NCBI GenBank assembly: GCA_021816585.1
Contig: JAKAXL010000004.1
Coordinates: 1-49,963 of the forward strand
DNA length: 49,963 nucleotides
From: Pseudomonadota bacterium
GTDB taxonomy: Bacteria > Pseudomonadota > Gammaproteobacteria > Burkholderiales > Burkholderiaceae_C
Reading direction: 5' to 3'
In this document: piece by piece, positions 8,690-10,677 of the stretch
Numbering within the stretch: the stretch's first letter is position 1
How the letters are laid out: each line of letters opens with the position of its first letter
Translations under genes and position numbers: made by a program
The notes under the pieces: generated by a model
Seen by the model: the letters and a program-made list of their open reading frames with translations, nothing else
What the model was told of the DNA's origin: nothing
The model's database searches: none

Positions 8690-9229
8690 ATGCCGTCGTC
8701 CGCCGTCGTCTACAACCCGCTGTCGCGCGCCCTGCACTGGAGCATCGTGCTGCTGGTCGCCGTCGAGTTCGTGCTGGCCTGGCTGATGCCCGACGTGCAT
8801 CGCGGCACGCAGCCGGTGGGGCTGATCGCCTGGCACATCGGCGTCGGCACCACCATCCTGGCGCTGATGCTGCTGCGCCTGCTGTGGCGCGGGGTCGGCG
8901 GCGCGCCGGCGCTGCTGCCGGGGCCGACCTGGCAACAGCACCTGGCCAAGCTGGTGCACGTGCTGCTGTACGCGGGCTTCGTGGTGCTTCCGCTGCTGGG
9001 CTGGGCGAATGCCTCGTCGCGCGGCTGGACCGTGCACCTGGCCGGAGTGGTCGGGCTGCCTGCGCTGGCGGCCAGCGGCGCCGTGTGGGCGCACAAGATG
9101 GGCAACGTGCACCAGGTGGTCGCCTACGTGCTGCTGGGCGCGATCGGACTGCACGTGGCGGGCGCGCTGTTCCACGGCGTGGTGTTGCGCGACGACACGC
9201 TGCGGCGCATGTGGCCGCGCAAGGCCTGA
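8690..9229 (+). CDS. Cytochrome b561 family membrane protein
   Basis: Di-haem membrane cytochrome of the bacterial CybB type, thought to move electrons between quinone and periplasmic or membrane partners. The 179-residue product has four hydrophobic segments (about 16-34, 44-65, 85-108 and 138-160). Histidines that could ligate haem lie in or near them: HW at about 16, WHIGVG near 48, VHVLLY near 90, and HKMGNVHQ plus GLHVAG in the last third. It begins about 110 bases after tldD and is probably transcribed separately. Confidence 0.87.
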   Translation: MPSSAVVYNPLSRALHWSIVLLVAVEFVLAWLMPDVHRGTQPVGLIAWHIGVGTTILALMLLRLLWRGVGGAPALLPGPTWQQHLAKLVHVLLYAGFVVLPLLGWANASSRGWTVHLAGVVGLPALAASGAVWAHKMGNVHQVVAYVLLGAIGLHVAGALFHGVVLRDDTLRRMWPRKA

Positions 9230-9288
9230 GCCCCGGCCCGAAGCGCCGCGCCGCGTTGCCGCGGCGCATCGCGGCCGGCAAGCCCTGC

Positions 9289-9318
9289 TTGGCGCGATGC
9301 AGCAGGCAGGCTTATACT
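9289..9318 (+). promoter_or_regulatory. Sigma-70-like promoter for the aromatic leader and DAHP synthase
   Basis: TTGGCG (9289-9294) and TATACT (9313-9318) with an 18-base spacer. Transcription would start about 9325, just before the leader peptide ATG at 9342. Confidence 0.6.
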
Positions 9319-9341
9319 GAGCCGCGAAACTTCTTCCTGCC

Positions 9342-9425
9342 ATGCCCTGCGCCCGCTTCTGGTTTTACGGCTTTTTTTGGTTCTCGCACCGCGCCGGCGG
9401 AGGGAGAGGGCACAGTCTGAGCTGA
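9342..9425 (+). CDS. Aromatic-rich leader peptide of the DAHP synthase attenuator
   Basis: A 27-codon open frame whose residues 6-14 read FWFYGFFWF: five Phe, two Trp and one Tyr in nine positions. It lies between a promoter and an intrinsic terminator just upstream of the gene for the first enzyme of aromatic amino acid synthesis. That is the layout of ribosome-mediated attenuation as in the trp and pheA leaders of enterobacteria. Ribosomes short of charged Phe, Trp or Tyr tRNA would stall at 9357-9383. The Shine-Dalgarno site is weak. It is too short for ordinary gene callers. Confidence 0.85.
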   Translation: MPCARFWFYGFFWFSHRAGGGRGHSLS

Positions 9426-9476
9426 ACCCCACGAAATTCCCGAAAAAACCGCCGGCCGAGCCCGGCGGTTTTTTTT
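9345..9476 (+). promoter_or_regulatory. Transcription attenuator with alternative RNA pairings
   Basis: Four segments can be drawn. Segment 1 (9345-9353, CCCTGCGCC) pairs with segment 2 (9396-9404, GGCGGAGGG) at 8 of 9 positions. Segment 2 shifted slightly (9393-9400, GCCGGCGG) pairs perfectly with segment 3 (9449-9456, CCGCCGGC). Segment 3 is also the 5' arm of the terminator. Segment 1 covers codons 2-4, just before the aromatic run. A ribosome stalled on the run would hide segment 1, free segment 2 to pair with 3 and prevent termination. The pairings are read from sequence and the mechanism follows known attenuators. Confidence 0.8.
9443..9476 (+). terminator. Intrinsic terminator of the attenuator
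   Basis: Stem CCGCCGG (9449-9455) with CCGGCGG (9462-9468), a 6-base loop, an A-run before it and eight T after it (9469-9476). It ends about 45 bases before the DAHP synthase start. Confidence 0.9.
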
Positions 9477-9519
9477 CGCCCCGGGCCCCGACGGACCCCC
9501 GAACCAGGAGCGCCAGGAG

Positions 9520-10677
9520 ATGTCCATGCTCGATCCCGCCAGTCCCGATTTCGCCCCCGAACGCGCGGGCGCCCGCGGCGCGCCCAGCGCCGAGCGCACC
9601 TCGTCCACCGACGACGAGCGTGTCGAGGACGTGCGCCCGCTGCCGGCCCCGGAGCAGCTGATCCGCCAGCTGCCGATCGCCGGCACCGCGGTGGAGACCC
9701 TGATCGGGCAGACCCGGCGCGCCGTGCATCGCATCGTGCAGGGGCAGGACGACCGGCTGCTGCTGGTCATCGGGCCGTGCTCGATCCACGACCCGAAGGC
9801 GGCGCGCGACTATGCGCAGCGCCTGCTCGAGCAGCGCCGCCGCCACGCGGCAGAGCTCGAGGTGGTGATGCGCGTGTACTTCGAGAAGCCGCGCACCACG
9901 GTGGGCTGGAAGGGCCTGATCAACGATCCGTACCTGGACCAGAGCTACCGCATCGACGACGGACTGCGCATGGCGCGCGAGCTGCTGATCGACCTCAACC
10001 GCATCGGCGTGCCCGCGGGCAGCGAGTTCCTCGACGTGATCTCGCCGCAATACATCGGCGACCTGATCTCGTGGGGCGCGATCGGCGCGCGCACCACGGA
10101 GAGCCAGGTGCACCGCGAACTGGCCTCCGGGTTGTCGGCGCCGATCGGTTTCAAGAACGGCACCGACGGCAACCTGCGCATCGCCATCGACGCCATCCTG
10201 GCGGCGCGGCGCCCGCACTCCTTCCTGTCGGTGCACAAGAGCGGACAGGTGTCGATCGTGCAGACCCGCGGCAACCAGGACACGCACGTGATCCTGCGCG
10301 GCGGGAGCCGGCCGAACTACGACGCGCCGAGCGTTCGCGCCGCCTGCGAGCAGCTGCACGCGGCCTCGCTGCAGTGCCGCCTGATGATCGACTGCTCGCA
10401 CGCCAACAGCGAGAAGAAGCACGAGCGCCAGCTGGTGGTGGCGCAGGACATCGGCGCCCAGCTGCGAGCCGGTGAGCGCTGCATCTTCGGCGTGATGGCC
10501 GAGAGCCACCTGGTCGGCGGGGCGCAGAAGTTCGCTCCGGGCCAGCACGATCCGGCGAGCCTGACCTACGGCCAGAGCATCACCGACGCCTGCCTCGGCT
10601 GGGACGATTCGCTGCGCCTGATGGACGAGCTGGCCGACGCCGTGCGCGCGCGCCGCGCGCGTGCCGCCCAGGCCTGA
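9520..10677 (+). CDS. aroG: 3-deoxy-7-phosphoheptulonate synthase, class I (AroG/AroF type)
   Basis: Condenses phosphoenolpyruvate and erythrose 4-phosphate to DAHP, the entry step of the shikimate pathway. The 385-residue product has the class Iα motifs [10 protein letters not shown], the [17 protein letters not shown] segment, [17 protein letters not shown] and DCSHANSEK with metal and substrate ligands. The N-terminus is about 30 residues longer than usual and Ala/Asp-rich. Two starts are possible: ATG 9520 (AGGAG at 9506-9510) and ATG 9526 (AGGAG at 9515-9519, better spaced). Expression is probably set by the attenuator upstream. Which aromatic amino acid inhibits the enzyme cannot be read here, so the letter of the symbol is uncertain. 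Confidence 0.93.

Follow-up and report, generated by a model that had tools for sequence, protein, structure and literature searches.

A conserved aromatic-codon leader and terminator, very probably an attenuator, ahead of DAHP synthase genes of Burkholderiales

Carbon enters aromatic synthesis at DAHP synthase, the first enzyme of the pathway, and in E. coli the DAHP synthase genes are controlled by TyrR and TrpR. The locus described here raises the question of what a short reading frame crowded with aromatic codons does directly ahead of such a gene. The window, that is, the whole stretch of 49,963 nucleotides that was analysed, comprises positions 1-49,963 of the forward strand of contig JAKAXL010000004.1 (assembly GCA_021816585.1), from a Pseudomonadota bacterium of the family Burkholderiaceae_C, order Burkholderiales. 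We observed the parts of an attenuator, their conservation, their pairings with covariation, and their link to the DAHP synthase gene. With high confidence, we take the element to be a ribosome-mediated transcription attenuator of the trp/phe type acting on this gene. As the same arrangement occurs in related bacteria, it is very probably a switch, which, judged from the sequence, would turn the aromatic pathway on when Phe, Trp or Tyr run short. The features of the locus are as follows.

8690-9229: cytochrome b561 gene, the upstream neighbour of the leader and the DAHP synthase gene
9289-9318, + strand: predicted sigma-70 promoter from a promoter scan, TTGGCG (9289-9294), 18 nt spacer, TATACT (9313-9318)
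9342-9425, + strand: leader peptide gene, ATG at 9342, 27 codons plus stop (9423-9425), with eight aromatic codons
9357-9383, + strand: control codons F W F Y G F F W F, codons 6-14, read from the sequence
9381-9392, + strand: region 1, 5' arm of the conserved local hairpin (UUCUC g C a CCGC), overlapping the last Phe codon
9393-9408, + strand: region 2, of which 9397-9400, 9402 and 9404-9408 pair with region 1 (fold, swap test)
9393-9400, + strand: antiterminator arm GCCGGCGG within region 2, pairing with region 3
9449-9456, + strand: region 3, pairing with region 2 (antiterminator) or region 4 (terminator)
9462-9476, + strand: region 4 and T run, forming an intrinsic terminator with 9442-9455; the end of the terminated RNA is predicted near 9476
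9520-9528, + strand: probable start of the DAHP synthase gene, ATG at 9520 or ATG at 9526, read from the sequence
9520-10677, + strand: type I DAHP synthase gene (AroG-like), the regulated gene (PF00793, E 6.4e-90; TIGR00034 over cut-off)
Beyond the DAHP synthase gene: SAICAR synthetase gene, its downstream neighbour

The first-pass annotation had proposed an aromatic attenuator ahead of a DAHP synthase gene, and its coordinates and letters for the promoter, the 27-codon leader and FWFYGFFWF at codons 6-14 are correct. The gene was confirmed as a type I DAHP synthase, and its best solved relatives are E. coli-type, Phe-sensitive AroG-type entries. An AGGAG at 9515-9519 is better spaced to the ATG at 9526 (6 nt) than to the one at 9520. 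The same genome holds two DAHP synthase paralogues, L002 (C78:131124) and L003 (C127:15246), which are 58% and 54% identical to the window's enzyme, respectively; neither has such a leader within 450 nt. The residues aligned near Ser211 of AroG, which we take to be a site bearing on feedback inhibition, differ among the DAHP synthases of this genome (FLSV, FMGM and FPSI), and these enzymes may thus have different feedback inhibitors.

For conservation, we compiled 159 loci upstream of DAHP synthase genes, with some organisms present twice: three from the window's own genome, 29 from relatives, 26 from family members, one plasmid record, 80 named contigs, and 20 from other families of the order. 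In 134 of the 159 loci, a script scan detected a leader rich in aromatic codons with a terminator behind it. The aromatic run, whose lack of conservation in relatives the first-pass annotation had named as counting against its reading, is kept across Burkholderiales. The loci outside the 134 are L002, L003, three from Cupriavidus, four of the six from Polynucleobacter, thirteen of the twenty from other families, and L124, L039 and L092. No leader was found within 450 nt in the Cupriavidus, the four Polynucleobacter and the thirteen other-family loci. L124 sits at a contig end, L092 has a leader without a recognised terminator, and L039 was taken at a misplaced offset, the covariance model described below finding the element in its genome (G157). 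The genus Polynucleobacter is split, as L090 and L096 keep the leader and L088, L089, L094 and L109 have none within 450 nt; a recent loss of the leader is possible there. The leader peptide of the window had no match in Pfam or NCBIfam.

The scan of 9000-10000 returned TTGGCG/TATACT as the only sigma-70-like site (shuffle mean 0.0). The -10 hexamer begins 29 bases before the leader AUG, which predicts about 17 untranslated bases at the 5' end, with transcription starting near 9325. In seven of eight non-redundant loci of the same genus, a TAnnnT hexamer lies between -34 and -27 relative to the leader ATG. Outside the genus, 80 of 92 loci carry an extended -10 (TGNTANNNT) with its hexamer 12-15 bases before the AUG, against a background of two matches per 27,993 bases. 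With a -10 so close, the RNA should start at or beside the AUG, and most relatives outside the genus thus probably make a leaderless leader RNA. Several order-level loci, among those listed, do not have such a close -10. A Shine-Dalgarno match of at least 5 nt precedes the leader in none of 100 non-redundant loci, none being seen at the window's leader, whereas 48 of the 100 downstream genes have one when the best of the candidate starts is taken.

Leaderless leader genes have been reported for Sinorhizobium meliloti trpL (partial text of PMC7298713) and Streptomyces lividans (partial text of PMC8079986). As far as those texts go, the likeness is a leader frame at the first transcript base, the leaderless start being only a prediction in our case; the amino acids and genes are others, and the window's own genus has a predicted 5' end of about 17 nt.

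The pairings that make up the switch were examined in 90 non-redundant loci. The two that the first-pass annotation had drawn downstream of the control codons hold: 9393-9400 pairs with 9449-9456 at 8/8 positions, and 9449-9455 pairs with 9462-9468 at 7/7. The folded terminator stem is longer, reaching 9442-9455/9462-9475, with an A run against the T run at 9469-9476, and the last 45 nt fold at -21.5 kcal/mol. For both 2:3 and 3:4, the native duplex energies were better than those with arms swapped between species (0/2000 permutations each), in a test that ignores the kinship of the loci by shared descent. Repeated in 59 loci from 13 other families, with kinship again disregarded, the swap test gave 0/2000 for each of 1:2, 2:3 and 3:4.

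The core of region 2, GGCGG, is present in 123 of the 134 leaders and falls in two reading frames, GGC GGN in most leaders and G GCG G in 34. Its retention across both frames indicates that it is conserved as RNA rather than as peptide. The base beside GGCGG, read through regions 2-3-4, is C-G-C in 95 of the 123 loci of the first set, and in the 59 other-family loci it is T-A-T in 24, C-G-C in 11, and another combination in 24; a change carried through three strands is the trace expected of two competing helices. The 2:3 pair at this position is broken in 18 of the 123 first-set loci and in 18 of the 59 outside the family. When region 2 is shuffled by mononucleotides, 223 of 2680 shuffles pair at least as well as the native duplex. 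Single-base permutations of region 2 against region 3 gave 23, 140, 43 and 406 of 2000 in the first set, in which the sequences are mostly alike, and the 2:3 covariation signal is clearer between families than within that set. By these tests, the antiterminator is mutually exclusive with the terminator and conserved as RNA.

The first pairing of the first-pass annotation, 9345-9353 with 9396-9404, fared differently. It can be drawn (8/9 pairs), it is part of the full-length minimum-energy fold of the window, and by this fold it may form in the window's own species. It is not a conserved hairpin, as it is kept in only 3 of the 90 folded loci with the core, and its native arms are no better than swapped ones, which equal them in 635 of 2000 permutations. 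The other parts of the element exceed chance. The conserved hairpin is instead 9381-9392 with 9397-9408 (9381-9385/9404-9408, 9387/9402 and 9389-9392/9397-9400), which folds at -15.0 kcal/mol within 9374-9410 and surpasses its swapped arms in the same 90 loci (0/2000). Therefore, the control codons end at its 5' arm; they lie just upstream of this arm and at its start, and not in the loop of the first pairing, as had been claimed. RNAalifold recovers the outer stem UUCUC/GAGAG by itself, and some of the pairs show compensatory changes; the covariation contribution is low (-0.28 and -0.23), and 3-9 sequences of 64, or 5-11 of 88, have any given pair broken or gapped.

Folding up to region 3 with nothing masked gave 1:2 (at least four pairs) in 51 of the 90 loci and 2:3 in 30. 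With region 1 masked, 2:3 formed in 90/90. Shuffling region 3 as a control still left this pairing in 339 of 450 cases; because the shuffled control pairs as well, the masked fold says little. The stretch before region 3 alone was no more stable than its shuffles in the window (z +0.4), and its mean z over 100 loci was -1.0.

For the placement of the ribosome, the sense of the response and the amino acids that count, we infer the following. RNA polymerase would transcribe the leader, and a ribosome would begin on it. When charged Phe-, Tyr- and Trp-tRNA are plentiful, the ribosome would run past the aromatic codons, and either 1:2 would re-form behind it or it would cover region 2; the 3:4 terminator would then form, and transcription would stop near 9476. 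If an aromatic tRNA lacks its amino acid, the ribosome would instead halt within 9357-9383. When its A site is occupied by the Trp-13 codon (9378-9380), its leading edge would, by the ribosome footprint size that we used, be placed near 9391, masking the 5' arm at 9381-9392. Region 2 would thereby be freed to pair with region 3, no terminator would form, and the DAHP synthase gene would be transcribed. A stall that masks the 5' arm of 1:2 is the classical attenuator geometry.

Every one of the 134 leaders contains Phe; Tyr is present in 131 and Trp in 122, and 120 leaders have the three together. Phe accounts for 599 of the 948 aromatic leader codons and Trp for 140, and in other families of the order Phe is found in 63 of 64 leaders, Tyr in 56, and Trp in 22. 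These counts would suit an attenuator that reads mainly Phe, perhaps with Tyr, in which the few Trp codons matter little and not all three end products would govern the enzyme; the review PMC11802643, in its quoted part, likewise has the aroR leader of Corynebacterium glutamicum answering to Phe and not to Tyr. The placement of Trp speaks the other way. A Trp codon directly precedes the last aromatic codon in 95 of the 134 leaders, and a stall at that position would mask region 1 best. We regard the Phe-dominated alternative as a serious contender, albeit the less probable one, and lean slightly towards a leader in which all three amino acids count, with Phe and Tyr probably the core signals and Trp a signal added in the window's family. 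The Phe codon TTT makes up 61% of the Phe codons in the leaders and 16% in the genes behind them.

A different possibility is that the released leader RNA or peptide acts in trans, as reported for rnTrpL and peTrpL of Sinorhizobium meliloti, either alongside cis control or in its place. A short, discrete terminated RNA is predicted, and outside the genus most relatives probably have its 5' end at the AUG, as stated for rnTrpL in the quoted part of PMC7298713. The peptide downstream of the aromatic run, however, varies between genera, whereas both the aromatic codons and the pairing of the RNA persist, and the link to one kind of gene points to control in cis; we therefore consider action in trans improbable. 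It is scarcely credible that the stretch is a mere terminator of the upstream gene with a chance reading frame, since the promoter placement, aromatic codons, hairpins and covariation are conserved across families, even though a terminator does separate the cytochrome b561 gene from the DAHP synthase gene.

Returning to the cis-acting attenuator, we searched for the repressors that control the E. coli genes. Neither PF01371 (TrpR) nor TIGR04381 (the TyrR DNA-binding domain) scored over cut-off in any of 31 genomes, and both were detected in E. coli. The window's own draft genome is 93.56% complete, so that absence is not proof of loss there. One genome (G006) gave a below-cut-off match to PF01371 (24.6 against 27 bits). 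The available part of PMC5343134 describes TrpR and TyrR as conserved in many groups of gamma-proteobacteria and absent in other classes. A broader reading, to which we give even chances, is that of an old Burkholderiales attenuator family, mostly leaderless in the window's family, that would make shikimate entry depend directly on the charging of Phe-tRNA, Tyr-tRNA and, in that family, Trp-tRNA, a single RNA switch thereby summing the three end products in bacteria without TyrR or TrpR.

Known RNA families did not account for the element. Rfam release 15 gave no match over the gathering score in the window, and within 9200-9600 only matches below that score were obtained (best E 0.11). The Burkholderia sRNA ncS01 was rejected as a candidate at 16.7 bits against a cut-off of 58 (E 1.4), and the portions seen of PMC5688073, PMC10987360 and PMC10175445 hold no link between ncS01 and a DAHP synthase gene or a leader peptide. 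The first of these, in the same portion, reports 82 short 5'UTRs in B. cenocepacia.

The attenuators trpL and pheL of E. coli have their control codons at region 1 and alternative 1:2, 2:3 and 3:4 pairings. Our element is like them in both respects; each of them serves one amino acid and end-branch genes, whereas here the common entry step is concerned. The C. glutamicum aroR-aroF attenuator, reportedly the subject of Neshat 2014, shares an aromatic leader peptide ahead of a DAHP synthase gene. It belongs to another phylum, and the part quoted of its leader has Phe-Tyr-Phe without Trp, against eight aromatic codons here; in the quoted parts of PMC11802643 and PMC4046766, ribosome stalling on this leader is said to enhance transcription of the operon. 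The former also names trpL and pheL, in the same quoted part.

In Acholeplasma, the uORFC-13-1 motif ahead of aroF was predicted computationally with 24 representatives (PMC8632094, in part). According to that text, it too has a short Phe-containing frame ahead of a DAHP synthase gene, beside what looks like an intrinsic terminator; it differs in being confined to one genus and environmental sequences and in having Phe as the residue named. Putative attenuators from Merino's database are mentioned in the part seen of PMC1173090 for DAHP synthase-tyrA operons of Vibrio and for the pheA-tyrA supraoperon of Bordetella parapertussis. Attenuation has been suggested for aroF of E. coli and Shewanella (PMC2659441, in part), and the part available of PMC2965389 contains nothing on aroG, DAHP or phenylalanine. 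Our search of the open literature, outside whose scope lay Merino's database, subscription papers and supplements, found no DAHP synthase attenuator in Burkholderiales, and the element may have been noticed earlier. Attenuation of DAHP synthase is known elsewhere, and we take the widespread Burkholderiales element as a new instance, because it has no Rfam match over the gathering score, the window's leader peptide has none in Pfam or NCBIfam, and no Burkholderiales case was found in the literature searched.

For the genome-wide search, we built a covariance model (R1) from 64 leaders. In the window's genome, the model gave a single match, 9342-9476. At the family level, it matched 194 of 200 genomes, covering 137 of 141 genera and 176 of 179 good assemblies; when the best 20 family matches were compared by eye, 19 lay just upstream of a listed DAHP synthase, the twentieth belonging to a genome outside the rows compared. 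A same-design RNA switch in 194 of 200 genomes of one family, at the entry step of the shikimate pathway, gives one rule of regulation that applies to many genomes together, along with a covariance model usable in annotation. It also allows one to ask whether a single leader sums three amino acids.

At the order level, the model gave 82 matches, spread over 81 of 300 genomes. For 77 of the 82, a DAHP synthase gene follows directly on the same strand, a count made up of 72 of the 77 loci tested, the window, and G038, G047, G054 and G057 by position; the remaining five have E values of at least 0.0013. The families used for training overlap with those in which the element was found, since the training leaders include one Solimonas and members of f8, f12, f13, f20 and f23. 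Of the 64 other-family matches, 38 fall in family labels without a training sequence under a genome handle, a count that does not take in some named training contigs (L090, L097 and L138), whose families may be among them.

In the class, 5 of 274 genomes had a match, three from the window's family and two from f63, and both f63 matches (L238 and L239) are followed by the DAHP synthase motif GPCSIH. A leader and terminator also precede the DAHP synthase gene in L139 (Solimonas sp. SE-A11). The copies in Solimonas and f63 may reflect either transfer of the gene together with its switch or an older origin. In f23 and f44, the gene behind the switch is closer to the paralogue L002 than to the window's gene in 12 loci (L173, L174, L180, L182, L194, L196, L202, L216, L222, L223, L224 and L232), so that the switch occurs on either DAHP synthase subtype.

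Second matches of the model in five family genomes were considered as other regulated genes and rejected; their E values are at least 1.6e-4, and by eye they show a terminator and no aromatic leader. Two strong matches were obtained in G212, a genome 70% complete (C327:1016-1145 and C42:1596-1726), which represent a second copy or a mixed assembly. Finally, a weak match at L246 (G339:C20:48230-48373, E 0.002) contains an aromatic-rich frame, MVTFSVVYNVYFYWYRSSGGAKGC, ahead of a gene of about 204 codons.
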